From positions 801,374-865,373 of the forward strand of contig OZ025806.1 of the NCBI GenBank assembly GCA_964019425.1: 64,000 nucleotides of DNA. The letters are read 5' to 3'. Positions 2,766 through 59,349 of this stretch are shown in pieces (within the stretch, counting starts at the first letter, position 1; each line of letters begins with the position of its first letter). Source of the DNA: Flectonema sp. DT1601. Its lineage: Eukaryota > Euglenozoa > Diplonemea > Diplonemida > Diplonemidae. The translations under genes and the position numbers were made by a program. The notes beneath the pieces are model-generated. The model searched no databases and was not told where the DNA came from. It was given only the letters and a program-made list of their open reading frames with translations.

Positions 2766-5700
2766 ATGAACGGCCATGTATTTATAACACTACTGATCAT
2801 CTTCACGCAGTCATGTGACGGTTATTTTTGGCAACACTCCAGAAAGTGTAGAAATATTCGAACACGAGCTAATTGTGAAAATAATCGATTTTGTTATTGG
2901 TATCAAAGAAGAGGAACACGAGAGTGCGTTGCAAAACTCTCATGTGCGACCTACAAAAGGGAGATTTCCTGTATGACTGAGCCTCTCTGCAAATGGGACA
3001 ATACGCGCTGTAAAGATCGCTGTCTTTCTAGTTGTGTTCGATCCAATGGTTGTAGGAGAACAAGAGGTAGATGTATAAATAGAAAATTGCTTGGAGTATG
3101 GAAAGCGGATTACTGCATTGGTGGTACTTTTGACATTGGAAGTGCATCGTGTGATTGCTCTGGTAAATTTGGTGGATCGCAGTGTCACAGATGCCCAGGC
3201 GGCTACGACTCAGGTCCAACTGGCACCTGCTCACAATGTGTTGGAGTAAATACTGGTGGTGTTTGTTCAGCCTGTAATGTAACTCACTGTAATAATCATG
3301 CATCATTAGCTAGGGCAGGTACTATTTCAAATCCTGGTTGTACATGTACCTGTAGTCCAAGGTATGGAGGTCAAACTTGTAATGAATGTGCGATTGGTAG
3401 AGTTGATTATCCTATTTGTAGTTTATGTAATAGGAATTATTGCAATCGTCATTCCTCAGCTCAAACTGCAATGGGTAATACGTGTGATTGTACTTGTGAG
3501 GTCAAGTTCTCTGGTTCTCGGTGTGAAAGATGTGCACCAACGGGATTTAACTATCCTTCTTGTACCACTTGTGATGCTGCTTACTGTTCAGGGAGATCTA
3601 CTGCTGCTGCTGTTAACCCTGGTCAGACTGCATGCCAATGTACCTGCAGCCCAAATTTCGACGGCGACAGGTGTGAACGTTGCGCAACTAACTATTTCGG
3701 GCCAAACTGTGATGAATGTTCTGTCGCTAACCCTTGCAGCAATAATGCTGTATCAGCTTTACCGAGTATAAATGGTGCTTCGTGTATGTGTACGTGTAAA
3801 TCAAACTTTGAGGGACCGATCTGTGATAGATGTGCTCCAAATTATTTTGGAACAGCTTGCCTTGCCTGTGATAATACATACTGCAACAACAACGCGCTAG
3901 CATTCAATGTAGTCAGCAGTGCGTGTACATGCACTTGTAAAGCTGAATACACAGGTCCGACATGTGGAGAGTGTGCGGTTGGGTATTTTAACTACCCAAC
4001 TTGTACAAGATGTGATGCTGCTTATTGCAATAATTTATCCGTTCCCCCTCCAGCTACGGATCTTGCTAGAACGAGCTGTCAGTGTTCTTGCCCAACAATA
4101 ATATCAGGAGATCGATGTGAGCAGTGTAATACAAATAGAATAACCTATCCAACATGCACACTTTGTTCTACAACTACCCATTGCAATTCACATGCAAACA
4201 GTGTTACTGCAGTTAATCAGCCTTTAAGTAGTCAATGTGTCTGTGATTGCTCAGAGGGATTTGGTGGAGCAAACTGTGATTCTTGCGAACCTGGATACTT
4301 AATGTATCCGACATGTTCACCTTCTTGTACAGCAGCAATATTCTGCCATGGCAATGCAGTGTCGGCTTCGAATGCTACTTCAGCGTGTGTTTGTAGTTGT
4401 AAAGCTAACTTCAGAGGTCAGCGTTGTGAAGAGTGTATACCTGGACTTATTAACTGGCCTACTTGCCGTGCATGTACTGTATCTCAAGATTGTTCGAATC
4501 ATGCTTCAAATGTGAATGCTCACTCAACGGATGACAGCTGCGTCTGTCAGTGTAACAACCAATGGAACACAGCTAACTGTAGCAACTGTCCTTTACCATT
4601 TGCGGGGTCAAGCTGTGATGAATGTGCTGATGGATATTTTGGAACACCACCAACATGCACTAAATGTAATATAACAACTCACTGCAATGGAAGAGGTAAT
4701 ACTGTTGTTGTTAACCCTAACAATGATGGATGTGATTGTGATTGTACTAACCAATGGCAAGGTATCTCTTGTGAAACCTGTCCTTTACGATTCGAACAGC
4801 AACAGTGTAATACCTGTGTAGATGGTAATCCAGATTTCCCAGCTTGCGGAACATCAGCCCCTGCGACGGGAATACCATCGTCATTGGTCCCGACTTTAGT
4901 TCCAACAGTGTCACCAGTTGAAGTTACTTCATGTAATAGAAGTCGTTGTGATGAAGAGCACACCACTGAAGTAACTGTTACTTGTGATTGTATCTGTAAA
5001 CAACAATTCACAGGTCCAACATGTGATATTGACTGCGGGAGTTCTTGCCTAATTAATAGTATTAGATCAACAACATCAACTGACCCTTGTAACTGTGACT
5101 GTACTGAAGGATGGGAAGGTACTAATTGTGATGTTTGTATAAATGGAACTATTTGTGAAATACCAAAACCGAAATCACTAAATCCGATTGACGTTTTCAG
5201 TGCAGAAGGAAGCCTTCCGAAAGGATTGGTGTCAGCACCGATCGGAACAACTTCTGGAGGACGTCTTAAAGTGATATCTGCTCTCTGTGGAGCAGAAGAT
5301 GATATTTTAGACCCAGAAATCGCCCCGCTTCGTATTAAAATTGGTTCATCTGACCACGCTAGTTACATTGGTGGAATCTTAGGAAATTCGATCTTTATAT
5401 TAACACCTATTCTTGTTCATTTTATAGCTGTGCTTGTCCGCATGCGATACATGCCCCCAAATGAACGCTCTTTCAAAATCGCTTCAGCTGATATGAGATT
5501 TCCATACCTGTCACTCTTCTTTGTGATATTTATGTATCACGGAATGGCTACTTGTGGGTTAAAACTTTCAGTGTTTGGAACTGCATCAGAGAGAGCTATA
5601 GGAATTACGTCTCTTTTGCTGTATAACATCGGCTTCTTAATTCTAATTGGTATTCAAAATAGGAGACTTACTGGTGATGCTTCCTACTATACAAAGGAAG

Positions 5701-6566
5701 ACACAACAATGCTGAGTCGATACTTCTTCGGACCTGGTGAATGGGTTTCAGCATCAAAGTCTCGAAGAGTTCATAGATGGGGATTGTTATTTGAGATGTA
5801 TAGACCAGGTTTTACTTGGTTCTTGATTTTAGAATGTGTAATTCTGTTTATTATAACGATATTTCAAGTTATTGAAGCAAGCAAGATGCCTGAATGCCGC
5901 AACTTGGCTGCGCTGCTTTCGGCGTTGTTTGGTTGTTTGGCGACAATAATTTTCTTTTTTCATCCCTGGGCATCTATGTTTGACAATCACGGCAACTCAC
6001 TAATTCTTGGACTGGAGGCTATTGCGTGTGGATTCCTAGCCAGGGGTTTCCATACAGGTGATCGAAGCGACTGGAGTTTTGATCAATCTTCAAGAATGTT
6101 AGTCATAGTGAGTTACTTAACAGTGATGAAAGGATTTATTGATCCTATTTTATTACTTTACGTTGAATGGAACAGACGTGATGCAGTCCAACGTGATTTC
6201 TACCACGCTCATGATGATCAACCTCACGAACTAACATCATTTGAGAAGACAATGGAAGAAGATTATCTTGAAGATTCGTTAGTGTTTTACAACCATTCTA
6301 ATAATTATTCGCCTTCTGATGTCTCTGAAGGAGTGACACCAATTGGATCAGTGCTATTAGCAGCAAAGAGTAGTCGGACATTCTCAATAAAGTCACCTTC
6401 TTGTATTGGCGGGCCATACACTCCTAACACGGCCTCTCCTCTGGTTATAAACAAACCAATCCGATTGAAATCATATCCGTTGATTGAGAAGTGGAGAAAC
6501 AGCAGTGCATCTTCTGCAATAGCAAGCCTGGCAGACGATACTGATGCGGCGGAAATATTATTGTAA
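2766..6566 (+). CDS. family gene A: EGF-module stalk, seven-helix membrane surface protein
   Basis: Encodes 1266 residues. Residues 1-19 form a signal peptide. A head of about 95 residues carries repeated Cys/Trp patterns (FCYW, LCKW). About twelve EGF/laminin-EGF-like modules follow to roughly residue 800, most with the pattern CxxC-C-CxCxC-GxxC-YPxC; a Thr/Pro/Val-rich spacer (about 700-720) separates the last two. The motif LNPIDVF opens a linker to a hydrophobic core (about 866-1135) with seven likely helices, including HGMATCGLKL and RWGLLFEMYRPGFTW. With a cleaved signal and seven helices the roughly 130-residue tail is cytoplasmic; it has acidic patches, Ser-Pro sites and ends near SYPLIEKW. 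The core loosely recalls TRP/Flc-like or EGF-TM7 designs but I cannot assign it. It is one continuous frame, most diverged from C-G, and shares exact DNA patches with gene B. Role as surface receptor or adhesin is inferred. Confidence 0.9.
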   Translation: MNGHVFITLLIIFTQSCDGYFWQHSRKCRNIRTRANCENNRFCYWYQRRGTRECVAKLSCATYKREISCMTEPLCKWDNTRCKDRCLSSCVRSNGCRRTRGRCINRKLLGVWKADYCIGGTFDIGSASCDCSGKFGGSQCHRCPGGYDSGPTGTCSQCVGVNTGGVCSACNVTHCNNHASLARAGTISNPGCTCTCSPRYGGQTCNECAIGRVDYPICSLCNRNYCNRHSSAQTAMGNTCDCTCEVKFSGSRCERCAPTGFNYPSCTTCDAAYCSGRSTAAAVNPGQTACQCTCSPNFDGDRCERCATNYFGPNCDECSVANPCSNNAVSALPSINGASCMCTCKSNFEGPICDRCAPNYFGTACLACDNTYCNNNALAFNVVSSACTCTCKAEYTGPTCGECAVGYFNYPTCTRCDAAYCNNLSVPPPATDLARTSCQCSCPTIISGDRCEQCNTNRITYPTCTLCSTTTHCNSHANSVTAVNQPLSSQCVCDCSEGFGGANCDSCEPGYLMYPTCSPSCTAAIFCHGNAVSASNATSACVCSCKANFRGQRCEECIPGLINWPTCRACTVSQDCSNHASNVNAHSTDDSCVCQCNNQWNTANCSNCPLPFAGSSCDECADGYFGTPPTCTKCNITTHCNGRGNTVVVNPNNDGCDCDCTNQWQGISCETCPLRFEQQQCNTCVDGNPDFPACGTSAPATGIPSSLVPTLVPTVSPVEVTSCNRSRCDEEHTTEVTVTCDCICKQQFTGPTCDIDCGSSCLINSIRSTTSTDPCNCDCTEGWEGTNCDVCINGTICEIPKPKSLNPIDVFSAEGSLPKGLVSAPIGTTSGGRLKVISALCGAEDDILDPEIAPLRIKIGSSDHASYIGGILGNSIFILTPILVHFIAVLVRMRYMPPNERSFKIASADMRFPYLSLFFVIFMYHGMATCGLKLSVFGTASERAIGITSLLLYNIGFLILIGIQNRRLTGDASYYTKEDTTMLSRYFFGPGEWVSASKSRRVHRWGLLFEMYRPGFTWFLILECVILFIITIFQVIEASKMPECRNLAALLSALFGCLATIIFFFHPWASMFDNHGNSLILGLEAIACGFLARGFHTGDRSDWSFDQSSRMLVIVSYLTVMKGFIDPILLLYVEWNRRDAVQRDFYHAHDDQPHELTSFEKTMEEDYLEDSLVFYNHSNNYSPSDVSEGVTPIGSVLLAAKSSRTFSIKSPSCIGGPYTPNTASPLVINKPIRLKSYPLIEKWRNSSASSAIASLADDTDAAEILL

Positions 6567-14213: not shown

Positions 14214-17200
14214 ATGAAGAATAATGTGTGGCTGGTTGCCGCTTTGTTGCTGATCCTCACAAAGAATGTTAGTGGACTCAGTCAAGACGTTATTGATTCT
14301 ACGAGCCTCTGTGGCACATACACAACAAAACCAAGTTGTGCTGCTAACAAATACTGCAATTGGTTCGATGCTGGGTCAGAGTGCACAATTAGAGTTCGAT
14401 GTGAACAAGCATCAACTGCAGCGCAGTGTAATGCACTGTCAACAGATATATGTGTTTGGTCCCTGGGTAATTGTTTAGAAAAGTGTTATTTTAGTTTATG
14501 TAATCCTATGGAATGTGGTATGCGAAACACACCAATCGGTACTTGGTGCGTAGATCTAAGACTACCCGCAGAAGACACAATGTGCATCGGTGGAACCTGG
14601 GACATAGGACGACGAAAATGTGTTTGCACAGGAGGCCACACAGGAACTCAATGTGAAGAGTGTGAGGGCCCATATGACGGGGGTCCCTTTGGTAAGTGTA
14701 GTACTTGTTTTGGAGATAATTCTACAGGCACTTGCGAAGATTGTGATGCAACAAGTTGTAGTAGCGCTGCTACTTCTTTCTCGAATGGGAACCTAACACA
14801 TCCTGGATGTCAGTGTGGATGCCTTCCGCAATACACCGGAGCGAAATGTGATGCATGTGCTGGAGGAAAAGCTGGGTTCCCGAATTGTGTAAACTGTGAT
14901 AATCTACACTGTAGTGGTCTATCCCAAACTCCACCAGTGGTGATTGGGAATAGTTGTGTTTGTGACTGTCCTCCTCAATATGGAGGTAGTCAATGTGAGC
15001 AATGCGCACCCGGGCGTTTCAACCACCCGACATGTTCGCAGTGCGATGACGATTATTGTAATCAGAAATCTGCATCAGCTCCACAAGTAGTTTCCGACAG
15101 TTGTGTCTGCGACTGTCAAACTTCATTTGCGGGCTTACAGTGTGAAAGGTGCGACAATGGTTACAACTACCCAGCATGTGCAGATTGTGACCAGGCTTTC
15201 TGTTCTAATAATGCGAAATCGACACCTATAATGCATCCAATCACACAAGTATGTGATTGTGATTGCAATAATGGCATTGGTGGTAGTCGGTGTGAACGTT
15301 GTTCATTTAATCGAATTAATTATCCGACTTGCACAAAATGCACAACACAAGTCCACTGCAGTGCCAACGCTATTTTGGCAGTCGCTAGTAGTCCAACTGA
15401 ATGCTTATGTCTATGTAAAGAAGGGTTTACAGGAGCTGCTTGTGACAGTTGTGATGTTGGATACAAAAACTATCCCGCATGTGATCCCGACTGCACTGTT
15501 GCAATCTTTTGTCACGGCAATGCTGTGTCTGCAGTGCGGCCCACTACTAATACCTGTGATTGTGATTGCTTTCCGAAATATGAAGGCAACCGATGCGAAA
15601 AATGTAAATCCGATTTGGTATACTGGCCGACATGCCGAGAGTGTGACATTACCATGGATTGTGCAGGGAAGGCATCTGCTGTCACTCCAATCACAAATCA
15701 GACTGGATGTTCATGTGTGTGTGATAATCAGTGGGATCCTTTAACTAATTGTAGCACCTGTCCATCTACTTTTGGAGGTATCCATTGTGACCAGTGCGCA
15801 GCTGGTTACTTCGGAACACCACCTCTTTGTACTAAATGTGACAGCAATGTTCATTGTAATAGTAGGTCTGTTTCTGTTTCTGTAAACAGTATGAACACAG
15901 GATGTTCTTGTATGTGTATATTTGGTTGGAATGGAGATAGTTGTGAAAACTGTCCTTCGGTTTATAATAAAACGACGTGTGCATCGTGTTCGTCTGAGAA
16001 TGTGTCTCCTTATCCAGATTGTCTTCCATTGGCTACAGCAGTAGTTGCGGTTACAATGTCACCACCATCACTAGCACCAGAGGGTTGTGATGTTAGTGTC
16101 TGTGATAGTAATCAAACGGCTTTCGTAAATAACGTGACTTGTGAGTGTACATGTAAACCACAATATGCTGGATTATTATGTGATGTTAACTGTGGAAGTG
16201 AATGTCTTAATGGTGGAGTCAGATTGACAAACGGAACCTCAGTTTGCCGATGCGAATGCACATCAGAATGGACTGGACTTAACTGTGAAATCCCACCAAA
16301 AATAGTAAAGCTAAACCCTGTTAATGTGTTTGCAGGTGCAGCTGCTATCCCTCAAGAAGTGGCATCTGTTAATATTGGCAGCACTTCAGGAGCTCGCCTT
16401 AAAGTGATATCTGCTCTCTGTGGTGCAGAGGATGATATTTTGGACCCAGAAATAGCTCCGTTGAAATTCAAAATTGGATCTTCTGACCACGCCATCTACA
16501 TTGGGGGTATTGTTGGAGATATAATTGTGATGGTGAGCCCAATTCTTATTCATTTTATTGCTGTTTTGATGCGAATGCGTTCAACTGCCGCTCACGAACG
16601 CTCTTTTAAGATAGCCTGCGCTGATATGAGATTTCCATACCTGTCACTCTTCTTTGTGATATTTATGTATCACGGAATGGCTACTTGTGGGTTAAAACTT
16701 TCAATATTTGGAAGTGCCGGAGGAAAGTCAATCGGAATCAGCTCCCTTTTTATATTTAATTTTGGATTCTTAGCTCTCATAGGGGTCCAAAACAGAAGAC
16801 TCATCGGAGAAGTAAAATTTCATAAAAAAGAAAACGTAACAATGCTGAGTCGATACTTCTTCGGACCTGGTGAATGGGTTTCAGCATCAAAGTCTCGAAG
16901 AGTTCATAGATGGGGATTGTTATTTGAGATGTATAGACCAGGTTTTACTTGGTTTTTAATATTTGAATGTATGATCCTGTTGGTTATCACCGTAGTACAA
17001 GTGATTGAAGCCGATCGAATGCCTGTTTGTCGCAATTTAGCAGTTCTATTGTCAGCTATGTTCAGTCTGTTTGCATTGGTCATTCTTATATTTCATCCTT
17101 GGGCGTCAAGCTTTGACAATCAAGGAAACTTTTTAATACTAAGTCTTGAAGCGATCGCATGTGGGTTTCTCGCTCGTGGGTTTGAAACAGGCGATCGTAG

Positions 17201-17681
17201 TCATTGGGGTTTTGATTATTCTGAACAATTATTATTAATTGTGAGTTACATTACGGTTATAAAGGGTTTCATCGATCCCCTACTACTATTGTATGTTGAA
17301 TGGAGTCGTAGAAGTGTTGTTCAGACTGACTTCAATATCGCAAGAGACGAACACAAACCACACGAACTCGCAACATTTGAAACCCCTTTTGGTGATGACG
17401 TTATGGAGGATTCATTTATGTATTATGCTCAAAATGAATGCAACGATCCAAGCGATTGGAAGTCAGTTGAAAGTCAAATAAGCGACCCTCGAATTGGTGT
17501 CGGATACCCCCCAAGTATTCAAGCTCGTAAGCTTTCATCGGATACGTTTTCCATAAGATCGCCTTTAAGCGCTACTCGATCGTCTCTTCTAAACATTAAC
17601 ACTACTACGTCAGGTGGTACGCAGAGACTCTGTTCATATCCCTTACTTGAACGTTTAAAGGAAGTGGAGATTTCGCTGTAG
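14214..17681 (+). CDS. family gene B: EGF-module stalk, seven-helix membrane surface protein
   Basis: Encodes 1155 residues, ending TAG. It has an N-terminal signal peptide (about 1-21), a Cys/Trp head (YCNW, CVW) ending near residue 130, then about ten to eleven EGF/laminin-EGF-like modules to roughly 690, with a Thr/Pro-rich spacer near 610-620 as in A. The linker motif LNPVNVF leads to seven likely helices (about 760-1030) and a cytoplasmic tail ending CSYPLLERL. The protein is clearly orthologue-like to A in module order (for example AIFCHGNAVSA occurs in both). Two stretches, 16620-16703 and 16838-16954, are identical to A at DNA level while flanking sequence differs, indicating recent gene conversion. 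A single continuous frame with the ATG immediately after an acceptor. Confidence 0.9.
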   Translation: MKNNVWLVAALLLILTKNVSGLSQDVIDSTSLCGTYTTKPSCAANKYCNWFDAGSECTIRVRCEQASTAAQCNALSTDICVWSLGNCLEKCYFSLCNPMECGMRNTPIGTWCVDLRLPAEDTMCIGGTWDIGRRKCVCTGGHTGTQCEECEGPYDGGPFGKCSTCFGDNSTGTCEDCDATSCSSAATSFSNGNLTHPGCQCGCLPQYTGAKCDACAGGKAGFPNCVNCDNLHCSGLSQTPPVVIGNSCVCDCPPQYGGSQCEQCAPGRFNHPTCSQCDDDYCNQKSASAPQVVSDSCVCDCQTSFAGLQCERCDNGYNYPACADCDQAFCSNNAKSTPIMHPITQVCDCDCNNGIGGSRCERCSFNRINYPTCTKCTTQVHCSANAILAVASSPTECLCLCKEGFTGAACDSCDVGYKNYPACDPDCTVAIFCHGNAVSAVRPTTNTCDCDCFPKYEGNRCEKCKSDLVYWPTCRECDITMDCAGKASAVTPITNQTGCSCVCDNQWDPLTNCSTCPSTFGGIHCDQCAAGYFGTPPLCTKCDSNVHCNSRSVSVSVNSMNTGCSCMCIFGWNGDSCENCPSVYNKTTCASCSSENVSPYPDCLPLATAVVAVTMSPPSLAPEGCDVSVCDSNQTAFVNNVTCECTCKPQYAGLLCDVNCGSECLNGGVRLTNGTSVCRCECTSEWTGLNCEIPPKIVKLNPVNVFAGAAAIPQEVASVNIGSTSGARLKVISALCGAEDDILDPEIAPLKFKIGSSDHAIYIGGIVGDIIVMVSPILIHFIAVLMRMRSTAAHERSFKIACADMRFPYLSLFFVIFMYHGMATCGLKLSIFGSAGGKSIGISSLFIFNFGFLALIGVQNRRLIGEVKFHKKENVTMLSRYFFGPGEWVSASKSRRVHRWGLLFEMYRPGFTWFLIFECMILLVITVVQVIEADRMPVCRNLAVLLSAMFSLFALVILIFHPWASSFDNQGNFLILSLEAIACGFLARGFETGDRSHWGFDYSEQLLLIVSYITVIKGFIDPLLLLYVEWSRRSVVQTDFNIARDEHKPHELATFETPFGDDVMEDSFMYYAQNECNDPSDWKSVESQISDPRIGVGYPPSIQARKLSSDTFSIRSPLSATRSSLLNINTTTSGGTQRLCSYPLLERLKEVEISL

Positions 17682-20458: not shown

Positions 20459-20489
<31 letters not shown>

Positions 20490-24317: not shown

Positions 24318-24523
24318 AAACACGCGAAGTAAAGAATCGCTTAGTCTTCTAATTCATTTGATCAGCTCATTAGTTGGGTCAGACTCTTTCATTTCAACAT
24401 GGAAGACGGTTGTCGTTGTGAATGACACGATGTTTGTACGCTTGGATTTATAAGTTTAAGAAAGTTGATAGGGTTCTTTATTATTTTATTTATCATTCCC
24501 CCAACCACAGTAATGTATCCATA
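24318..24523 (+). promoter_or_regulatory. conserved 5' leader of gene C with splice acceptor
   Basis: This is the minimal upstream sequence shared by C-G (from AAAGAATCGCTTAGTCTTCT on). It includes an eight-codon upstream ORF starting at ATG 24396, a second ATG overlapping its stop, and a pyrimidine tract ending CAACCACAG at 24510, 13 bases before ATG 24524. GTACG at 24436 and CACAG at 24510 would make a 75-nt intron. Promoter role is inferred from conservation only. Confidence 0.5.
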
Positions 24524-41229: not shown

Positions 41230-44200
41230 ATGAACACTATGTCTCTTGTTCTTGTTTTAACACTTTGTGGTATCAGTCTTGGATATACAGACAAGTGTGC
41301 AAGAATCACAACTGTAAGTGCATGTAGATTATCACGTTGGTGTTTTTGGGCACCTAACAATGTTTGTGCTCCAATTTTGCAATGTGAAAATGTGGTGGTA
41401 GGTGTTCCACCTGTGCGAACTAATTGTGACAAGTTTTCTTCATGCAGGTGGGATAACACTAAACGTGAGTGTGTCAATCCGTGTATACCTTATAATACAC
41501 TATCAAGCTGCAGCAACTCACCATATGGTAGTCAATGTAGATGGTATTTTCACCTTTGTTTTAGCCACTATAAAATTACTCCAGTAAATGGAGAAACTGA
41601 TTACTGCATGTCAAGAGGAACATATAATAGCGCAATATCCCGCTGCGATTGTCGAGGTGAGTCTTACTTAGACCAATGCCAGGGATGTCCGGATCAATAT
41701 GACGCATCAGAATCCTGTTCTATATGTGTGACACAGAAATACGATTCGGGTAATACTTGCAGATTATGTGACGTCAATTTAGATTGTAGTAATCACGCAC
41801 ACAGCGTATCCTCTGGAACAGCAGCAAGTCCGGGTTGTAATTGCAACTGTTTTGCAAGTCATTTTGGTACCAGTTGCACTGCTTGTGATAATGCTTATTG
41901 TAACAATCATGTTAAGTTAGGTAATGTTCCTCAAGTTAGAAACGGTAGTATCACCACATGTGACTGCAACTGTGCTGACGAATACAGCGGGCCACGCTGT
42001 AATACATGTGCGAATAACCACATCGATTATCCTAATTGTGTGAGGTGTGACTTGGGTATTCATTGCAATGGAAATGCGGGGTCGGTAATGTCAACAGCCT
42101 CTAACTCGAAATGCAGCTGCAGTTGTACATCTGGATATACAGGAGATGCTTGTGACATCTGTGACACAAACTACGTACGTGATCCCAGTCTACCTGGAAT
42201 CAAATGCCGACAATGCAGTGTAGTCACAGACTGCAACAACAGAGCTACAAGTGTAATCCAGCAGGGCAATAGTTGTGTGTGCAGCTGCAGAAACAAGTGG
42301 GACCCTGCAGACAATTGTGTCAGCTGTAATCCTCCGTACGCAGGAACAGATTGTGATACGTGTATGCCGAGTCATATTAACTATCCAAATTGTACTTTAT
42401 GTACTTTGAACGATTGCAATAACAGAGCATCAAGTGTAACATCAAATGCTAACAAAGATGGATGCAGCTGTAATTGTACTGGACAGTGGGTAGGCAACAT
42501 CTGTGATGACTGTCCTGTAATATTTGAGCAAACTATGTGCAGTTCTTGTGCCGCAGTGAGTGCAAGTCCATATCCAGTATGCACGGGATGTACTATTGAT
42601 TCTCACTGTGGAGGATCTCAACGAGCATCATCAGTAACAATGAGTAATATGCAAACTTGTGATTGTACTTGTATATTCCCTTGGACTGGTCAACGTTGTC
42701 AGGTCTGTCCGATTCCTTTTTCTGGAACATCATGTGACAGCTGCGCTGACGGTTACATTCAGGTAGTTGCTTCTCCTCTCACATGTGAACTTTGTGACAT
42801 TCTAAAGCATTGCACTCCATCACAAACTGCTTCCGTACACAGCAACAGATCCACTGACAAGTGTATGTGCAGTTGTGTTGGGAATTGGAATGGTGAGTCA
42901 TGCGACAACTGTCCAATCCCTTTGGGTGGATCACAGTGTGAATGCAGTGTTGAAAGCCATTGTGGGGGTACAAATAGAGCAATCGAGTCCAAGACAGTTA
43001 CAGTAAATAATGTTTCATCTTGTAGCTGCGTCTGTTCAGGTAACTGGCAAGGTACTAATTGTAGTGAATGTGCACATCCCTACTCGGGAAGTAATTGTAA
43101 TGCTCACGTTTCGGTTCGTGAAACCTGCCCGCTGCAATTCACAGGAGCAAATTGCAGTGAATGTGCACGTGGTCGGGTGAACTACCCCACTTGCGATATC
43201 TGCGACATCAGTATTTGTGAACAACATCGAAATCCGCTAACAATGCGAATCAGACGGAATGGTAGCGAACCGGAGTGTCAATGTGTCTATAAGGATGATG
43301 TCACTGCGTGTGCGGCACCTTTTTATACTTCTTCTTGTGAGGCTTGCAGCTTACCAATCCATTGTACTGGAGATGCCTATGCCGTGGAAGTTGATGAGGA
43401 TGACCCGAATAGTTGTTTGTGTCAATGTAGAAATGCTTCTCAAAGTTGTCAGCGAGGAGAATCAACAGCTTCACCAGTTTCGATTAATCCGATTAATGTG
43501 TTTGAAAGTAAAGGGTCTGTACCTGTTGGGATAGTAGCGTCAGGTAGTATCGGAGGAACATCAGTAGCTCGTCTTAAAGCAATCAGCGCTTTGTGTGGAA
43601 AGGAAGACGACGTTCTTGATCCGGAGGTGGATCCACTTAAACTGAAGGTTGGGAATTCTAAATACGCTGCTTACACGGGAGGTGTTCTTGGAAATTGTGT
43701 TTTCGTCCTTTCGCCAATAATTGTTCATCTCACTGCTGTCTTAATCCGAACAAGGTATCCAAACCGAGTAGAATTTAACGAAGCAGCAGCTGACTTGCGG
43801 TTCCCGTACATCAGTTTGTTCTTTGTTATTTTCATGTTTCACGGAATGGCCACTTGTGGACTGAAGCTTCTAATATTTGGAGGTGCTGGTGAAAAGGTGT
43901 TGGGGGTTTCTGTCCTTCTTTCATTTAACATTGGATTTCTTGTATTGATTGTAGCAAAGACGAGAAGCTTGTCGAAGGACGTTACGTACTTTGACAGGGC
44001 AGGAACTACACTGGTAAGTAGATACTTCTTTGGAAATGGAGAATGGGTGTCTGCAACACAAAAGAGACAAGTGCATCGATGGGGATTGTTATTTGAGATG
44101 TATAGACCAGGTTTTACTTGGTTCTTGATATGTGAATGTATTGTTTTACTCACCATAACTGTGGTACAGGTGAGTGAGGCCAGCCGAATGCTCAGTTGCA

Positions 44201-44862
44201 GGAATTTGGCGGGTTTGCTGGTAGCTCTCTTTGGAGGATTGACTCTGGTAATTATGTATTTCGGACCTTGGGCATGTCGTTTTGACAATCATGGGAACGG
44301 ACTCATCCTTGGACTTGAAACTGTTGCTTGTGGTTTCTTAGTCAGAGGTTTCAGCACGGAAGACCGTTCTGACATGGGATTCACATATGCCAGCAATATA
44401 TTAATTGTAGTTAGCTACTTGACTGTTGCTAAGGGATTCATTGATCCTTTTCTGTTGTTATATGTTGAATGGACTCGTAGATCAACAATTCAAGATAATT
44501 ATAATGACGTCTGTCACACAGAAGAGAAATGTCAACAACTGGAAGTCACAGATGAATTGCTTGAAGACGATGACTTTGTTCAATATCCGTTGCCTGAATT
44601 CGAAATGACTGTGAAGAGTTGTGTTGACTTTAATGATCCAATATGCAATGAGGGTGGTAAGAGTACTCCTTCACTCACAAACATACGAAGCGCTCGCACT
44701 CCGGAAGTCACGTTTCAGAGAATAGCAAGTCCCCTGTCTGCTACAAATTCTGCTGCTGCTCGCAATCTCAACTCTTCAACGAGAGAATCTCTTCTTAGAA
44801 TTGCTTCATACCCGTTGCTTGAAAAGCAAAGGAATGATTGTTTTGTTGACGTTTCTCCATGA
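41230..44862 (+). CDS. family gene E: intermediate-length array copy, seven-helix surface protein
   Basis: 1210 residues, ending TGA. It keeps the 135-residue stalk block that D, F and G lost, but lacks the 51-residue block and has its own junction instead of the 144-residue deletion: about seven novel residues (NAHVSVR) replace the missing modules before the shared ETCPLQFTG. It also lost the SAGFTGNTC module half near its start, reading FASHFGTSC. The head (about 20-140) is distinct from the other copies. Core about 813-1078; tail ends SYPLLEKQ, then CFVDVSP. E is therefore a recombinant intermediate between the C-type and the D/F/G-type stalk. Confidence 0.9.
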   Translation: MNTMSLVLVLTLCGISLGYTDKCARITTVSACRLSRWCFWAPNNVCAPILQCENVVVGVPPVRTNCDKFSSCRWDNTKRECVNPCIPYNTLSSCSNSPYGSQCRWYFHLCFSHYKITPVNGETDYCMSRGTYNSAISRCDCRGESYLDQCQGCPDQYDASESCSICVTQKYDSGNTCRLCDVNLDCSNHAHSVSSGTAASPGCNCNCFASHFGTSCTACDNAYCNNHVKLGNVPQVRNGSITTCDCNCADEYSGPRCNTCANNHIDYPNCVRCDLGIHCNGNAGSVMSTASNSKCSCSCTSGYTGDACDICDTNYVRDPSLPGIKCRQCSVVTDCNNRATSVIQQGNSCVCSCRNKWDPADNCVSCNPPYAGTDCDTCMPSHINYPNCTLCTLNDCNNRASSVTSNANKDGCSCNCTGQWVGNICDDCPVIFEQTMCSSCAAVSASPYPVCTGCTIDSHCGGSQRASSVTMSNMQTCDCTCIFPWTGQRCQVCPIPFSGTSCDSCADGYIQVVASPLTCELCDILKHCTPSQTASVHSNRSTDKCMCSCVGNWNGESCDNCPIPLGGSQCECSVESHCGGTNRAIESKTVTVNNVSSCSCVCSGNWQGTNCSECAHPYSGSNCNAHVSVRETCPLQFTGANCSECARGRVNYPTCDICDISICEQHRNPLTMRIRRNGSEPECQCVYKDDVTACAAPFYTSSCEACSLPIHCTGDAYAVEVDEDDPNSCLCQCRNASQSCQRGESTASPVSINPINVFESKGSVPVGIVASGSIGGTSVARLKAISALCGKEDDVLDPEVDPLKLKVGNSKYAAYTGGVLGNCVFVLSPIIVHLTAVLIRTRYPNRVEFNEAAADLRFPYISLFFVIFMFHGMATCGLKLLIFGGAGEKVLGVSVLLSFNIGFLVLIVAKTRSLSKDVTYFDRAGTTLVSRYFFGNGEWVSATQKRQVHRWGLLFEMYRPGFTWFLICECIVLLTITVVQVSEASRMLSCRNLAGLLVALFGGLTLVIMYFGPWACRFDNHGNGLILGLETVACGFLVRGFSTEDRSDMGFTYASNILIVVSYLTVAKGFIDPFLLLYVEWTRRSTIQDNYNDVCHTEEKCQQLEVTDELLEDDDFVQYPLPEFEMTVKSCVDFNDPICNEGGKSTPSLTNIRSARTPEVTFQRIASPLSATNSAAARNLNSSTRESLLRIASYPLLEKQRNDCFVDVSP

Positions 44863-49182: not shown

Positions 49183-52100
49183 ATGAACACTATGTCTCTT
49201 GTTCTTGTTTTAACACTTTGTGGTATCAGTCTTGGATATCCAGTACAGTGTGGAAATAGCACAACTCAAAATACATGTACATCACGTTGGTGTTTTTGGG
49301 CACCTAACAATGTTTGTGCTCCAATTGTGCAATGTAAAAATGTGGTGGTAGGTGTTCCACCTGTGCGAACTCATTGTGACGACATTTCTTCATGCAAGTG
49401 GGATAGTCAATTTGACAAGTGTGTCGATCCGTGTACATATTATACACAATCGGACTGCAACAACTCACCATACGGTATTCAATGTCTTTGGTTAGCTGGT
49501 AGTTGTAATAACCAGTATAAGATTACTCCAGCGAGTGCGGTTACAGATTACTGCTTACGTAGAGGAGCATATAATACCGCAACATCCAAATGCGATTGCC
49601 AAGGTGAGGCTACCTTAGACCAATGCCAGGGATGTCCGGATCTATTTGACACCTTACATTCCTGTTCTATATGTGTGACGCAGAAGTACGGTTCAGGTAA
49701 TATTTGCAGATTATGTAACGTCAATTTAGATTGTAGTAATCACGCACACAGCGTATCCTCTGGAAATGTGACGAATCTGGGTTGTAATTGCAACTGTTCT
49801 GCAGGTTTCACAGGAAACACATGTAGTTCCTGTGACACTGGTTATTTTGGTACCAATTGCACTGCTTGTGATAATGCTTATTGTAACAATCATGTTAAGT
49901 TAGGTAATGTTCCTCAAGTTAAAAACGGTGGTATCACCACATGTGACTGCAACTGTGCTGACGAATACAGCGGGCCACGCTGTAATACATGTGCGAATAA
50001 CCACATCGATTATCCTAATTGTGTGAGGTGTGACTTGGGTATTCATTGCAATGGAAATGCGGGGTCGGTAATGTCAACAGCCTCTAACTCGAAATGCAGC
50101 TGCAGTTGTACATCTGGATATACAGGAGATGCTTGTGACATCTGTGACACAAACTACGTACGTGATCCCAGTCTACCTGGAATCAAATGCCGACAATGCA
50201 GTGTAGTCACAGACTGCAACAGCAGAGCTACAAGTGTAATCCAGCAGGGCAATAGTTGTGTGTGCAGCTGCAGAAACAAGTGGGACCCTGCAGACAATTG
50301 TGTCAGCTGTAATCCTCCGTACGCAGGAACAGATTGTGATACGTGTATGCCGGGTCATATTAACTATCCAAATTGTACTTTATGTACATTGAACGATTGC
50401 AATAACAGAGCATCAAGTGTAACATCAAATGCTAACAAGTGTATGTGCAGTTGTGTTGGGAATTGGAATGGTGAGTCATGCGACAACTGTCCAATCCCTT
50501 TGGGTGGATCACAGTGTGAATGCAGTGTTGAAAGCCATTGTGGGGGTACAAATAGAGCAATCGAGTCCAAGACAGTTACAGTAAATAATGTTGCATCTTG
50601 TAGCTGCGTCTGTTCAGGTAACTGGCAAGGTACTAATTGTAGTGAATGTGCACATCCCTACTCGGGAAGTAATTGCAGTGAATGTGCACGTGGTCGGGTG
50701 AACTACCCCACTTGCGATATCTGCGACATCAGTATTTGTGAACAACATCGAAATCCGCTAACAATGCGAATCAGACGGAATGGTAGCGAACCGGAGTGTC
50801 AATGTGTCTATAAGGATGATGTCACTGCGTGTGCGGCACCTTTTTATACTTCTTCTTGTGAGGCTTGCAGCTTACCAATCCATTGTACTGGAGATGCCTA
50901 TGCCGTGGAAGTTGATGAGGATGACCCGAATAGTTGTTTGTGTCAATGTAGAAATGCTTCTCAAAGTTGTCAGCGAGGAGAATCAACAGCTTCACCAGTT
51001 TCGATTAATCCGATTAATGTGTTTGAAAGTAAAGGGTCTGTACCTGTTGGGATAGTAACGTCAGGTAGTATCGGAGGAACATCAGTAGCTCGTCTTAAAG
51101 CAATCAGCGCTTTGTGTGGAAAGGAAGACGACGTTCTTGATCCGGAGGTGGATCCACTTAAACTGAAGGTTGGGAATTCTAAATACGCTGCTTACACGGG
51201 AGGTGTTCTTGGAAATTGTGTTTTCGTCCTTTCGCCAATAATTGTTCATCTCACTGCTGTCTTAATCCGAACAAGGTATCCAAACCGAGTAGAATTTAAC
51301 GAAGCAGCAGCTGACTTGCGGTTCCCGTACATCAGTTTGTTCTTTGTTATTTTCATGTTTCACGGAATGGCCACTTGTGGACTGAAGCTTCTAATATTTG
51401 GAGGTGCTGGTGAAAAGGTGTTGGGGGTTTCTGTCCTTCTTTCATTTAACATTGGATTTCTTGTATTGATTGTAGCAAAGACGAGAAGCTTGTCGAAGGA
51501 CATTACGTACTTTGACAGGTCAGGAACTACACTCGTGAGTAGATACTTCTTTGGAAATGGAGAATGGGTGTCTGCAACACAGAAGAGAAAAGTGCATCGA
51601 TGGGGATTGTTATTTGAGATGTATAGACCAGGTTTTACTTGGTTCTTGATATGTGAATGTATAGTTTTACTCACCATAACTGTGGTACAGGTGAGTGAGG
51701 CCAGCCGAATGCTCAGTTGCAGGAATTTGGCGGGTTTGCTGGTAGCTCTCTTTGGAGGATTGACTCTGGTAATTATGTATTTCGGACCTTGGGCATGTCG
51801 TTTTGACAATCATGGGAACGGACTCATCCTTGGACTTGAAACTGTTGCTTGTGGTTTCTTAGTGAGAGGTTTCAGCACGGAAGACCGTTCTGACATGGGA
51901 TTCACATATGCCAGCAATATATTAATTGTAGTTAGCTACTTGACTGTTGCTAAGGGATTCATTGATCCTTTTCTGTTGTTATATGTTGAATGGACTCGTA
52001 GATCAACAATTCAAGATAATTATAATGACGTCTGTCACACAGAAGAGAAATGTCAACAACTGGAAGTCACAGATGAATTGCTTGAAGACGATGACTTTGT

Positions 52101-52383
52101 TCAATATCCGTTGCCTGAATTCGAAATGACTGTGAAGAGTTGTGTTGACTTTAATGATCCAATATGCAATGAGGGTGGTAAGAGTACTCCTTCACTCACA
52201 AACATACGAAGCGCTCGCACTCCGGAAGTCACGTTTCAGAGAATAGCAAGTCCCCTGTCTGCTAGAAATTCTGCTGCTGTTCGCAATGTCAACTCTTCAA
52301 CGGGAGAATCTCTTCTTAGAATTGCTTCATACCCGTTGCTTGAAAAGCAAAGGAATGATTGTCTCGTGCAGGTTTTTCCATGA
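49183..52383 (+). CDS. family gene F: short array copy, seven-helix surface protein
   Basis: 1066 residues, ending TGA. Same three stalk deletions as D and G. The head has its own sequence (VQCGNSTTQNTCTSRWC), one of the shortest and most divergent of the five, and the first stalk region after it is also altered (DTLHSCSICVTQKYGSG). The core is about 669-934 and carries a few private changes near GEWVSATQKRKVHRWG. Tail ends SYPLLEKQ, then CLVQVFP. Variation is therefore concentrated in roughly the first 220 residues. Confidence 0.9.
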   Translation: MNTMSLVLVLTLCGISLGYPVQCGNSTTQNTCTSRWCFWAPNNVCAPIVQCKNVVVGVPPVRTHCDDISSCKWDSQFDKCVDPCTYYTQSDCNNSPYGIQCLWLAGSCNNQYKITPASAVTDYCLRRGAYNTATSKCDCQGEATLDQCQGCPDLFDTLHSCSICVTQKYGSGNICRLCNVNLDCSNHAHSVSSGNVTNLGCNCNCSAGFTGNTCSSCDTGYFGTNCTACDNAYCNNHVKLGNVPQVKNGGITTCDCNCADEYSGPRCNTCANNHIDYPNCVRCDLGIHCNGNAGSVMSTASNSKCSCSCTSGYTGDACDICDTNYVRDPSLPGIKCRQCSVVTDCNSRATSVIQQGNSCVCSCRNKWDPADNCVSCNPPYAGTDCDTCMPGHINYPNCTLCTLNDCNNRASSVTSNANKCMCSCVGNWNGESCDNCPIPLGGSQCECSVESHCGGTNRAIESKTVTVNNVASCSCVCSGNWQGTNCSECAHPYSGSNCSECARGRVNYPTCDICDISICEQHRNPLTMRIRRNGSEPECQCVYKDDVTACAAPFYTSSCEACSLPIHCTGDAYAVEVDEDDPNSCLCQCRNASQSCQRGESTASPVSINPINVFESKGSVPVGIVTSGSIGGTSVARLKAISALCGKEDDVLDPEVDPLKLKVGNSKYAAYTGGVLGNCVFVLSPIIVHLTAVLIRTRYPNRVEFNEAAADLRFPYISLFFVIFMFHGMATCGLKLLIFGGAGEKVLGVSVLLSFNIGFLVLIVAKTRSLSKDITYFDRSGTTLVSRYFFGNGEWVSATQKRKVHRWGLLFEMYRPGFTWFLICECIVLLTITVVQVSEASRMLSCRNLAGLLVALFGGLTLVIMYFGPWACRFDNHGNGLILGLETVACGFLVRGFSTEDRSDMGFTYASNILIVVSYLTVAKGFIDPFLLLYVEWTRRSTIQDNYNDVCHTEEKCQQLEVTDELLEDDDFVQYPLPEFEMTVKSCVDFNDPICNEGGKSTPSLTNIRSARTPEVTFQRIASPLSARNSAAVRNVNSSTGESLLRIASYPLLEKQRNDCLVQVFP

Positions 52384-54163: not shown

Positions 54164-54167
54164 TAAT

Positions 54168-55296: not shown

Positions 55297-56169
55297 ATGT
55301 TAACTAACTTGAATTAGTTCCCTATCTTATAACAAACTCATATACTAGCTTTGATTTCGATTCTACAAACCTATCTTGTCTCCGTCACGGGGCAAGAAAC
55401 TCCCTCGCCTCTGACTATTTTAGTTGTTTATGTTGCAACTTGAATTCTGTTTGATTGCGTGGTTTCGGCAGTTCGTCTGGTGAATTGTGAAAGCAGTCGA
55501 CCAACTTCATTAAAGATTATGAAATAATGTCAGAAAAGAATAACAATTTACTTCCTTTTAAAATCATTTTGTTTCAAAGGAATATACACGTCAGATATGA
55601 AGAAACAGGCAGAGCAACCTGATGAAGAGTACAGGTATTTTTATATCTCTTTATTATAATAACATTTCATTAGTTCTTTTTGCAATATGGCGATTAAGCT
55701 TTTAGTGTTCATGTTAGTGATAGATGGATGCAATGGATACTTACCGTGGATACAATTGTCTCTTTTTTTAAAAATTCTTTTTGCGATTGAGGGAAAAACA
55801 AAAACAAAACTATTTTATTTACTTATTTGCGTGGTCTGATGGACTTGCTAAGTAACACAAACTAACTAAAAGTAAAAACACGCAAAGTAAAGAATCGCTT
55901 AGTCCTCTAATTCATTTGATCAGCTCATTAGTTGGGTCAGACTCTTTCATTTCAACATGGAAGACGGTTGTCGTTGTGAATGACACGATGTTTGTACGTT
56001 TCCTTATCGGAAAGTGAAAATGAGTGGAGATATTACTTTCCCAAAACAGCACAAAATATATTCTGTTCCGCTCTCTCTTTCTCGGTGGGGCTTTTATAAT
56101 ATCAAGAAAGTTGAAAGGTTTCTTTATTATTTTATTTATCATTCCCCCAACCACAGTAATGTATCCATA
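55297..56169 (+). promoter_or_regulatory. upstream block and long-type leader of gene G
   Basis: As for F, but at GAGTACAG (55628-55635) about 240 bases of sequence replace the short AAGTGAGGAACACAAAAAC segment of F, ending in a CTAA-type stretch. Acceptor CACAG ends at 56156, possible donor GTACGT at 55994 (163 nt, as in F). Confidence 0.5.
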
Positions 56170-59100
56170 ATGAACACTATGTCTCTTGTTCTTGTTTTAA
56201 CACTTTGTGGTATCAGTCTTGGATATACAGACATCAGTCTTGGATATGCAGACAAGTGTGCAAGTATCACAACTGTAAGTGCATGTGGGTTATCACGTTG
56301 GTGTTTTTGGGCACCTAACGTTCTTTGTGCTCCAATTATACAATGTAAAAATGTGTTGGCCAGTCCCGCTTTACAAACTGATTGTGAGAAGTTTTCTTCA
56401 TGCAGGTGGGATAACACTAAACGTGAGTGTGTCGATCCGTGTATAGATTATACAACATACAGAAACTGCCGCAACTCACCATCTGGTAATCAATGTCGAT
56501 GGAATGTTAATTTTTGTCTTAACCAGTATTTAGTTACTCCAGTAAATGGAGAAACCGATTACTGCATGTCAAGAGGAACATATAATAACACAACATCCAA
56601 ATGCGATTGCCAAGGTGAGTCTTACTTAGATCAATGCCAGGGATGTCCGGATCAATATGACGCATCAGAATCATGTTCTATATGTGTGACACAGAAATAC
56701 GATTCGGGTAATACTTGCAGATTATGTGACGTCAATTTAGATTGTAGTAGTCGCGCAAACAGCGTATCCTCTGGAACAGCAGCAAGTCCGGGTTGTAATT
56801 GCAACTGTTTTGCAGGTCATTTTGGTACCAATTGCACTGCTTGTGATAATGCTTATTGTAACAATCATGTTAAGTTAGGTAATGTTCCTCAAGTTAGAAA
56901 CGGTAGTATCACCACATGTGACTGCAACTGTGCTGACGAATACAGCGGGCCACGCTGTAATACATGTGAGAATAACCACATCGATTATCCTAATTGTGTG
57001 AGGTGTGACTTGGGTATTCATTGCAATGGAAATGCGGGGTCGGTAATGTCAACAGCCTCTAACTCGAAATGCAGCTGCAGTTGTACATCTGGATATACAG
57101 GAGATGCTTGTGACATCTGTGACACAAACTACGTACGTGATCCCAGTCTACCTGGAATCAAATGCCGACAATGCAGTGTAGTCACAGACTGCAACAACAG
57201 AGCTACAAGTGTAATCCAGCAGGGCAATAGTTGTGTGTGCAGCTGCAGAAACAAGTGGGACCCTGCAGACAATTGTGTCAGCTGTAATCCTCCGTACGCA
57301 GGAAAAGATTGTGATACGTGTATGCCGGGTCATATTAACTATCCAAATTGTACTTTATGTACTTTGAACGATTGCAATAACAGAGCATCAAGTGTAACAT
57401 CAAATGCTAACAAGTGTATGTGCAGTTGTGTTGGGAATTGGAATGGTGAGTCATGCGACAACTGTCCAATCCCTTTGGGTGGATCACAGTGTGAATGCAG
57501 TGTTGAAAGCCATTGTGGGGGTACAAATAGAGCAATCGAGTCCAACACAGTTACAGTAAATAATGTTGCATCTTGTAGCTGCGTCTGTTCAGGTAACTGG
57601 CAAGGTACTAATTGTAGTGAATGTGCACATCCCTACTCGGGAAGTAATTGCAGTGAATGTGCACGTGGTCGGGTGAACTACCCCACTTGCGATATCTGCG
57701 ACATCAGTATTTGTGAACAACATCGAAATCCGCTAACAATGCGAATCAGACGGAATGGTAGCGAACCGGAGTGTCAATGTGTCTATAAGGATGATGTCAC
57801 TGCGTGTGCGGCACCTTTTTATACTTCTTCTTGTGAGGCTTGCAGCTTACCAATCCATTGTACTGGAGATGCCTATGCCGTGGAAGTTGATGAGGATGAC
57901 CCGAATAGTTGTTTGTGTCAATGTAGAAATGCTTCTCAAAGTTGTCAGCGAGGAGAATCAACAGCTTCACCAGTTTCGATTAATCCGATTAATGTGTTTG
58001 AAAGTAAAGGGTCTGTACCTGTTGGGATAGTAGCGTCAGGTAGTATCGGAGGAACATCAGTAGCTCGTCTTAAAGCAATCAGCGCTTTGTGTGGAAAGGA
58101 AGACGACGTTCTTGATCCGGAGGTGGATCCACTTAAACTGAAGGTTGGGAATTCTAAATACGCTGCTTACACGGGAGGTGTTCTTGGAAATTGTGTTTTC
58201 GTCCTTTCGCCAATAATTGTTCATCTCACTGCTGTCTTAATCCGAACAAGGTATCCAAACCGAGTAGAATTTAACGAAGCAGCAGCTGACTTGCGGTTCC
58301 CGTACATCAGTTTGTTCTTTGTTATTTTCATGTTTCACGGAATGGCCACTTGTGGACTGAAGCTTCTAATATTTGGAGGTGCTGGTGAAAAGGTGTTGGG
58401 GGTTTCTGTCCTTCTTTCATTTAACATTGGATTTCTTGTATTGATTGTAGCAAAGACGAGAAGCTTGTCGAAGGACGTTACGTACTTTGACAGGGCAGGA
58501 ACTACACTGGTAAGTAGATACTTCTTTGGAAATGGAGAATGGGTGTCTGCAACACAAAAGAGACAAGTGCATCGATGGGGATTGTTATTTGAGATGTATA
58601 GACCAGGTTTTACTTGGTTCTTGATATGTGAATGTATAGTTTTACTCACCATAACTGTGGTACAGGTGAGTGAGGCCAGCCGAATGCTCAGTTGCAGGAA
58701 TTTGGCGGGTTTGCTGGTAGCTCTCTTTGGAGGATTGACTCTGGTAATTTTGTATTTCGGACCTTGGGCATGTCGTTTTGACAATCATGGGAACGGACTC
58801 ATCCTTGGACTTGAAACTGTTGCTTGTGGTTTCTTAGTCAGAGGTTTCAGCACGGAAGACCGTTCTGACATGGGATTCACATATGCCAGCAATATATTAA
58901 TTGTAGTTAGCTACTTGACTGTTGCTAAGGGATTCATTGATCCTTTTCTGTTGTTATATGTTGAATGGACTCGTAGATCAACAATTCAAGATAATTATAA
59001 TGACGTTTGTCACACAGAAGAGAAATGTCAACAACTGGAAGTCACAGATGAATTGTTTGAAGACGATGACTTTGTTCAATATCCGTTGCCTGAATTCGAA

Positions 59101-59349
59101 ATGACTGTGAAGAGTTGTGTTGACTTTAATGATCCAATATGCAATGAGGGTGGTAAGAGTACTCCTTCACTCACAAACATACGAAGCGCTCCCACTCCGG
59201 AAGTCACGTTTCAGAGAATAGCAAGTCCCCTGTCTGCTAGAAATTCTGCTGCTGTTCGCAATCTCAACTCTTCAACGAGAGAATCTCTTCTTAGAATTGC
59301 TTCATACCCGTTGCTTGAAAAGCAAAGGAATGATTGTCTCGTCTTTTGA
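56170..59349 (+). CDS. family gene G: last array copy, seven-helix surface protein
   Basis: 1059 residues, ending TGA. Behind the signal peptide a 7-residue unit (ISLGYTD, then ISLGYAD) is tandemly duplicated, seen in no other copy. The head is again distinct (CASITTVSACGLSRWC; NVLASPALQTDC in place of the GVPPVRTNC of others). The stalk has the D/F-type deletions plus the E-type loss near FAGHFGTNC. Core about 665-930; tail carries ELFEDDDF as in C and ends SYPLLEKQ, then CLVF as in D. The mosaic of features from C, D, E and F shows repeated exchange among array members. Confidence 0.9.
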   Translation: MNTMSLVLVLTLCGISLGYTDISLGYADKCASITTVSACGLSRWCFWAPNVLCAPIIQCKNVLASPALQTDCEKFSSCRWDNTKRECVDPCIDYTTYRNCRNSPSGNQCRWNVNFCLNQYLVTPVNGETDYCMSRGTYNNTTSKCDCQGESYLDQCQGCPDQYDASESCSICVTQKYDSGNTCRLCDVNLDCSSRANSVSSGTAASPGCNCNCFAGHFGTNCTACDNAYCNNHVKLGNVPQVRNGSITTCDCNCADEYSGPRCNTCENNHIDYPNCVRCDLGIHCNGNAGSVMSTASNSKCSCSCTSGYTGDACDICDTNYVRDPSLPGIKCRQCSVVTDCNNRATSVIQQGNSCVCSCRNKWDPADNCVSCNPPYAGKDCDTCMPGHINYPNCTLCTLNDCNNRASSVTSNANKCMCSCVGNWNGESCDNCPIPLGGSQCECSVESHCGGTNRAIESNTVTVNNVASCSCVCSGNWQGTNCSECAHPYSGSNCSECARGRVNYPTCDICDISICEQHRNPLTMRIRRNGSEPECQCVYKDDVTACAAPFYTSSCEACSLPIHCTGDAYAVEVDEDDPNSCLCQCRNASQSCQRGESTASPVSINPINVFESKGSVPVGIVASGSIGGTSVARLKAISALCGKEDDVLDPEVDPLKLKVGNSKYAAYTGGVLGNCVFVLSPIIVHLTAVLIRTRYPNRVEFNEAAADLRFPYISLFFVIFMFHGMATCGLKLLIFGGAGEKVLGVSVLLSFNIGFLVLIVAKTRSLSKDVTYFDRAGTTLVSRYFFGNGEWVSATQKRQVHRWGLLFEMYRPGFTWFLICECIVLLTITVVQVSEASRMLSCRNLAGLLVALFGGLTLVILYFGPWACRFDNHGNGLILGLETVACGFLVRGFSTEDRSDMGFTYASNILIVVSYLTVAKGFIDPFLLLYVEWTRRSTIQDNYNDVCHTEEKCQQLEVTDELFEDDDFVQYPLPEFEMTVKSCVDFNDPICNEGGKSTPSLTNIRSAPTPEVTFQRIASPLSARNSAAVRNLNSSTRESLLRIASYPLLEKQRNDCLVF

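Follow-up and report, generated by a model that had tools for sequence, protein, structure and literature searches.

Two groups of euglenozoan surface proteins come closest to those described here. Bodonin of Bodo saltans is described as an ectodomain followed by about seven helices and an intracellular domain; it occurs in many copies, and the membrane part of some copies resembles DGF-1 (passages of PMC4728078), a resemblance that is repeated in a review on Trypanosoma cruzi (PMC9967923). The review also credits DGF-1 with EGF-like signatures, an RGD motif and reticulate evolution. We analyzed a 64,000-nucleotide stretch of the genome of the diplonemid Flectonema sp. DT1601 (assembly GCA_964019425.1, contig OZ025806.1, positions 801,374 to 865,373, forward strand; hereafter the window), which carries most of a tandem array of ten genes, named A to J in their order on the plus strand. 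Their comparison with known families makes it well supported that the array represents an EGF-stalk branch, in a diplonemid, of a euglenozoan bodonin/DGF-1 superfamily. What would be new is this EGF-stalk, variable-head branch; bodonin and DGF-1 are already known. No report of such a family in diplonemids, or of the superfamily outside kinetoplastids, was found in the open literature searched, and the words "DGF" and "EGF" are absent from the main text of the diplonemid genome/transcriptome papers PMC10161547 and PMC7052976.

The first-pass annotation, made from the letters of the window, had assigned the proteins to no named family. This calls for revision: the core of most copies matches Pfam DGF-1_C (PF11040; 259 profile positions, curated cut-off of 27.3 bits), albeit below the cut-off, and the layout is the one given for bodonin in passages of PMC4728078. 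The core of gene A matches the profile from position 32 to 258 (E 2.3e-4). The profile search that the annotation had proposed for the core of gene C leads to DGF-1_C as well (E 2.4e-4); some paralogues lead to the TRP family (PF06011), and none of these searches leads to a family of G protein-coupled receptors (GPCRs). Genes C to J score 22.5 to 23.5 bits. Three paralogues from the same genome pass the DGF-1_C cut-off (30 to 38.4 bits), and a search with gene A itself recovers one of them, on contig C37 (E 3.8e-40; residues 737 to 1143, 31% identity). This match is the firmest link. When a profile of 11 window-type cores, C37 included, was compared with a profile of nine further cores from this genome, the two aligned along 312 columns (E 1.2e-40; reversed control, 0.14).

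The genome searched consists of 92 contigs (89.5 Mb), in which the window is C27:801374-865373. The core type was found at no fewer than 160 places, on 61 of the 92 contigs. This count, whose places were unchecked singly, pools the matches of three individual query sequences (E of 1e-4 or less) with eight places from the gene A and DGF-1_C searches. Many of those read have long PTAVPT-type (PT-repeat) stalks; the same core type is joined elsewhere in the genome to quite different ectodomains. We aligned 25 cores: three from window genes, three from the gene A search, nine from the TRP search and ten from the DGF-1_C search. Omitted were L004; L011, L013, L016-L018, L021, L025, L026 and L028 of the TRP search; and, of the DGF-1_C search, L031 (which is the L003 gene again), L043 and eight copies from the array, L033-L040. 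DGF-1_C is matched by 13 of the 25 (best E 4.5e-9) and TRP by 12, proportions that partly follow from the choice of cores. The best named relative of the L029 core is DIPPA_09003 of Diplonema papillatum (44% identity over 91%). Among 7996 candidates scored, the gene A core region had nine protein matches, six of them from its own contig; the alignment of 25 cores found one weak relative, P0020, among 7997, and nothing in the PDB by sequence. The DGF-1_C and TRP searches matched none of 14 control genomes, and neither family was found in eight flanking proteins (four from L009, three from L010, one from L008), a weak control whose topology was unchecked.

As the first-pass annotation had proposed, all seven window genes share the order head, Cys-rich laminin-EGF-type stalk, core and tail; in full, an N-terminal hydrophobic segment and a Cys/Trp-rich head precede the stalk, and a Ser-rich tail follows the hydrophobic core. 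The ectodomains of the ten array genes contain 83 to 135 cysteines (13 to 14%) and 6 to 11 CxCxC..CxxC modules. The gene A stalk matches Pfam EGF_laminin (PF00053) in three stretches at 46.4 bits, over a cut-off of 21, while genes B (19.6 bits) and E (16.6 bits) fall just under it and gene C has no match in the full-length Pfam scan at E up to 1. These scans, which covered A, B, C and E of the seven window genes, found ectodomain families of the EGF type alone in A, B and E, no ectodomain family in C, and no beta-helix or pectin-lyase-like family in any of the four. A PDB sequence search with gene C returned 11 matches (E 0.007 to 0.91), EGF-type and other weak ones. The missing beta-helix/pectin-lyase ectodomain sets the genes apart from DGF-1 proper and not from the superfamily, since published bodonin ectodomains vary.

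The array thus has points in common with both described systems. With bodonin, as characterized in passages of PMC4728078, it shares an ectodomain, about seven helices and an intracellular domain, the multi-copy state and several ectodomain classes, and some bodonins have a DGF-1-like membrane domain. The bodonin ectodomains, however, are Ser/Thr/Asn-rich and predicted to be autotransporter/beta-barrel adhesin-like, whereas those of the array consist of a Cys-rich head and EGF modules; bodonin is from a kinetoplastid rather than a diplonemid, and the likeness rests on its description, not on bodonin sequences. With DGF-1 the array shares the C-terminal membrane domain, and EGF-like signatures and reticulate evolution are reported for DGF-1 (PMC9967923). 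DGF-1 is dispersed, RGD-bearing and pectin-lyase-like, with 8 to 9 helices stated, whereas the array is tandem, is devoid of RGD in 10 of 10 copies and matches PF11040 below the cut-off. In sum, the array has the DGF-1_C-type domain, the multi-copy state and the predicted ectodomain, helices and tail of the superfamily, and lacks the RGD motif and gathering-level PF11040 match of DGF-1 proper.

The array combines nearly constant bodies with variable heads. Averaged over pairs of genes C to J, nucleotide identity falls from 99.6% in the signal peptide to 81.2% in the head (74.0 to 97.8), returns to 98.7% in the stalk and 99.2% in the core, and is 95.5% in the tail; stalk differences in the alignment are mostly gains or losses of whole blocks. 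The proportion of synonymous differences (pS) is 0.22 in the head compared with 0.016 in the core (C to H), roughly fourteen-fold. The 22 cysteine columns of the head are invariant (22/22), and 101 of its 175 gap-free columns vary; the 22 cysteine and 4 tryptophan columns and the open frame are kept in all eight heads. The heads are thus old and diverse. They also look mosaic, in that the nearest neighbor shifts along the head: gene I goes with H and J in blocks 1 to 3 and with E in block 4. An identity-run permutation test, which unequal rates along the head can inflate, placed 4 of 28 pairs (DE, DF, HI and IJ) at p = 0.001, the floor of 1000 permutations, and 16 of 28 at or below 0.05 uncorrected. 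The ratio of nonsynonymous to synonymous differences (pN/pS) was 0.87 for the whole head (bootstrap 0.69 to 1.11), 1.19 (0.72 to 2.29) for its first block and 0.66 (0.44 to 0.96) for its third.

A second array lies at C13:1047144-1209561 on the minus strand, with 18 cores counted and five genes sampled (L055-L059). It has the same core type, with a head and a PT-repeat stalk that do not look related to the window ones. Identity in this array is 94.7% over the first 50 columns, 83.4 to 92.9% in head columns 51 to 300, lower still in the stalk, and 93.3 to 99.3% in core columns 701 to 1000; the contrast between head and core is clearly weaker than in the window array. A degraded, dispersed copy on C24 (L054 1767-2620) has a head followed closely by a core, without the stalk, and contains internal stops.

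A six-frame reading of the window confirmed seven plus-strand, single-frame genes between 2766 and 59349; the open reading frames (1099 to 1430 codons) run from 2736 to 6566, 14214 to 17681, 24422 to 28714, 33576 to 36875, 41128 to 44862, 49027 to 52383 and 56014 to 59349, and only one other frame reaches 200 codons. The first-pass annotation had counted an array of seven. This holds for the window and not for the contig: a search of the genome with gene A found three further full copies past the window on the same strand (C27:868161, 880758 and 887674; genes H, I and J), making ten. Core identity is 70% between A and B, 58 to 64% between A or B and C to J, and 95 to 100% within C to J, and A and B are older members. 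In C to G a pyrimidine-rich tract with CACAG, likely a trans-splice acceptor with a 5' leader, lies 13 nucleotides before an internal MNTMSLV. Because the tract sits between the upstream ATG or GTG and MNTMSLV, translation of these genes probably starts at the latter (24524, 33678, 41230, 49183 and 56170). On the way from CACAG to this start there is a single short ATG, out of frame. The features of the window are as follows (7TM, predicted seven-transmembrane-helix core).

2766..6566, plus strand: gene A, 1266 residues; head, about 11 EGF-type modules, 7TM core and tail ending EILL
5250..6191, plus strand: 7TM core of gene A, DGF-1_C-like (E 2.3e-4)
14214..17681, plus strand: gene B, 1155 residues, order as in A; core from about 16380 to 17321
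24474..24523, plus strand: pyrimidine-rich tract and CACAG before MNTMSLV of gene C, likely acceptor and leader; identical letters before D to G
24524..28714, plus strand: gene C, 1396 residues from MNTMSLV, the longest stalk among C to J; open reading frame from 24422
24581..25114, plus strand: variable head of gene C
27422..28342, plus strand: homogenized 7TM core of gene C (DGF-1_C, E 2.4e-4)
33678..36875, plus strand: gene D, 1065 residues
33735..34271, plus strand: variable head of gene D
35589..36509, plus strand: 7TM core of gene D
41230..44862, plus strand: gene E, 1210 residues
41287..41823, plus strand: variable head of gene E
43567..44487, plus strand: 7TM core of gene E
49183..52383, plus strand: gene F, 1066 residues counted from MNTMSLV; translation is unlikely to begin at the listed GTG (49027)
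49240..49770, plus strand: variable head of gene F
51088..52008, plus strand: 7TM core of gene F
56170..59349, plus strand: gene G, 1059 residues from MNTMSLV
56227..56781, plus strand: variable head of gene G
58063..58983, plus strand: 7TM core of gene G

The seven-helix topology of the core is a prediction. An AlphaFold model of the gene A core has seven long helices (predicted local distance difference test, pLDDT, 81.8; predicted template modeling score, pTM, 0.75), in agreement with the about seven helices proposed at first pass, whereas hydropathy at a strict threshold separates only six segments in A, B and D, the sixth helix falling below it. Of the shared signal peptide also proposed there, a hydrophobic N-terminal segment exceeds the hydropathy threshold in nine of the ten array proteins, gene A lying below. 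The core motif that the annotation had singled out, RWGLLFEMYRPGFTW, could be placed in the loop before helix 4, after G-x-G-E-W-V-S. Invariant across the 25 aligned cores are two prolines, the glycine that opens G-x-G-E-W-V-S and two cysteines, one before transmembrane helix 1 (TM1) and one between TM4 and TM5. Both cysteines would face outside in the topology that we infer, and the pair is possibly a superfamily disulfide that links the ectodomain to the helix bundle. In the tail, the motif R-x-x-S-x-P, a putative site of phosphorylation or 14-3-3 binding, is present in 10 of 10 array genes, two of three relatives from other sources and none of four paralogues from the genome; shuffling predicts about 0.05 per window tail.

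We consider it fairly probable that the array is a diplonemid branch of the bodonin/DGF-1 superfamily whose members are receptors for recognition or adhesion that carry diverse heads on one homogenized TRP-like core. The recognition or adhesion role put forward at first pass fits, although its main evidence, variable heads on constant cores, was added by the present analysis. The N-terminal segment, the EGF modules and N-glycosylation motifs point to a cell-surface placement, and the proteins would be plasma-membrane recognition or adhesion receptors. The head would bind a partner, be it prey, substrate or another cell; the disulfide-rich stalk would be a spacer that keeps the head off the membrane; and the TRP/Flc-like core and the tail, with its R-x-x-S-x-P site, would anchor the protein and relay the binding event. 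Gene conversion along the array may keep the working parts uniform, while the heads would stay old and diverse and exchange segments.

Several results weigh against this interpretation. All array genes that match DGF-1_C do so at 21 to 23.5 bits, below its cut-off; gene B has no match to it in the core-piece scan, the complete proteins A, B, C and E show none when scanned at E up to 1, and the window genes are below the cut-offs of both DGF-1_C and PF06011. RGD occurs in none of the ten copies. Across 25 superfamily tails R-x-x-S-x-P was seen seven times when 3.1 were expected, and it is a subfamily feature at most. Tails of 19 of the 25 superfamily cores end in V, L, I or M; the idea of a C-terminal PDZ ligand is a hint at most, since the last residue is Pro in four array copies (E, F, H and J). 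For the heads, positive selection was considered and is not demonstrated at the pN/pS given above: none of the sub-blocks exceeds 1 significantly, and one falls below it. The heads may simply have escaped conversion, and for some variable blocks of T. cruzi DGF-1 published tests gave neutral or purifying selection (PMC9967923).

The TRP-like character of the core raises the question of whether the proteins are instead tethered mechanosensitive calcium channels, in which a Pkd2/Flc-type core is opened when the stalk is pulled by a head bound to prey or substrate, a reading that we regard as unlikely. PF06011 (cut-off of 28.5 bits) matches at 18 places in the genome, two of them at the curated cut-off (best core piece, E 2.2e-6), so the TRP/Flc lead of the first-pass annotation is supported for the superfamily. 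Among window genes scanned it reaches only gene B, weakly and over TM4 to TM6 (13.8 bits, E 0.026 at full length; 0.11 for the core piece), with nothing in A, C or E. In fold, the core model comes nearest to a viral one that bears the name "Transient receptor potential ion channel" (probability 1.00, TM-score 0.59, 296 columns), but at E 3.9e-3 and a root mean square deviation (rmsd) of 6.5 Å, and no PDB structure matches the core model (best Foldseek E 0.13). The classical TRP-like proteins of the genome, of the "GFLY" type (L011, L016-L018, L021 and L026) align weakly with the nine other cores (hhalign probability 43.7%, E 2.4e-4) and unconvincingly with window-type cores (1.9%, E 0.027), and the TRP link of the window genes is therefore indirect. 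The weak TM4-TM6 match connects gene B and paralogues with fungal Pkd2/Flc, and the fold neighbor is a viral model that is named for TRP; the two differ in that the window genes are far under the PF06011 cut-off and have an unrelated ectodomain, and channel function is putative here, with no pore or selectivity filter identified. Fission yeast Pkd2 does pass calcium on stretch of reconstituted membranes, according to a portion of PMC12028594. The array also has the outline of EGF-TM7 adhesion receptors, EGF repeats ahead of seven helices, and the first-pass annotation had pointed to this likeness. It is not supported: no GPCR, GAIN or GPS family appears in the Pfam scans (full-length A, B, C and E; 25 cores; E up to 1), where 7tm_2 and GAIN/GPS would be the domains to expect. 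GPCR chains among the 50 fold matches listed have query TM-scores of only 0.13 to 0.23 (rmsd 12 to 28 Å), and the sequence links lead to DGF-1_C and TRP. We give a GPCR identity next to no credence.

Two further explanations concern what the head variation is for. It might serve as a variable coat, evading grazers, viruses or parasites, or label individuals in self or mate recognition, rather than bind prey. A variable head on a constant body, mosaic heads and the dispersed, degraded copy on C24 would all suit this, but only ten copies are present, and a subtelomeric site is not indicated, because some 0.29 Mb separate the array from whichever end of its 1.18-Mb contig is closer; we judge it quite unlikely. 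Alternatively, the variation might have no role in recognition, core and stalk having been homogenized by recent duplication and conversion and the head differences being neutral relics. The excess of head over core pS, with pN/pS near 1 or below, is what relaxed or neutral divergence would give. Against it, the cysteine and tryptophan columns and the open frame are kept in every head from C to J, and the flanks on both sides of the head are homogenized, signal peptide included, so conversion would have to skip just the head block in C to J; the second array, whose head is unrelated, shows the trend again in weaker form. This explanation seems to us improbable.

If the preferred reading, recognition or adhesion receptors of the bodonin/DGF-1 superfamily, is correct, the DGF-1/bodonin membrane domain would be present in diplonemids and would predate kinetoplastids, and it would be tied to the TRP/Pkd2 class by a bridge of sequence and fold, a link that word searches did not find in the main text of the two key DGF-1/bodonin papers. 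The unexplained DGF-1 family of T. cruzi would thereby gain a testable mechanism, as a channel or contact sensor. Arrays in which heads vary and cores stay constant would offer a natural repertoire for recognition, in a group of marine protists that ranks among the richest in species. A broader proposal, which is speculative and rather unlikely, is that Euglenozoa evolved a modular system of contact sensing in which one TRP/Pkd2-type seven-helix core, possibly a stretch-gated calcium channel, is joined to many interchangeable and diversified recognition heads. Tandem arrays would homogenize channel and stalk and preserve a library of heads, T. cruzi DGF-1 being the parasite descendant. Were the core a Pkd2-type channel, pulling on the bound head could open it.

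Other features of the genome agree with a diplonemid host, namely, spliced-leader/5S arrays, GT-AG introns and the Diplonema relative. The spliced leader, CCAACGATTCTAAAGCTACAGTTTCTGTACTTTATTG, is presumably close to the diplonemid leader. The euglenozoan leader end occurs with up to two mismatches at 342 forward and 500 reverse places, compared with 1 and 0 for the reversed pattern, and tandem units measure 623 bases on C16 and 610 on C20, with a 5S rRNA gene in one stretch read of each. Kinetoplastids have next to no introns, and in diplonemids they are common (passages of PMC7859406 and PMC10161547). Isolated spliced-leader exon copies outside these arrays (L049 and L050, at C1:559924 and C2:12500) look like the product of processed mRNAs that were copied back into genomic DNA. 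A retro-origin of the intronless array was considered and is unsupported: even with three mismatches allowed, the 26-base leader end does not occur in the window, and a 16-base end matches three times, about as often as chance predicts (2.0 expected).

A reverse transcriptase fragment (RVT_1, E 3e-4, below cut-off) lies shortly downstream of gene G, at window positions 63134-63511. Two dCache-type genes lie directly upstream of the array, scoring 39.2 and 67.8 bits against a dCache_1 cut-off of 45. The nearer runs, by coordinates, in frame from L009 9085 into the window to about 1612, its L009 part accounting for the 39.2 bits; the second is at L009 5198-7516. Two GT-AG introns, read by eye, interrupt the nearer gene. 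Elsewhere the genome contains giant uninterrupted open reading frames, of 21,670 codons on C18, with many EGF-type modules, and of 12,447 on C3 and 12,108 on C62, in which weak pieces only were found.

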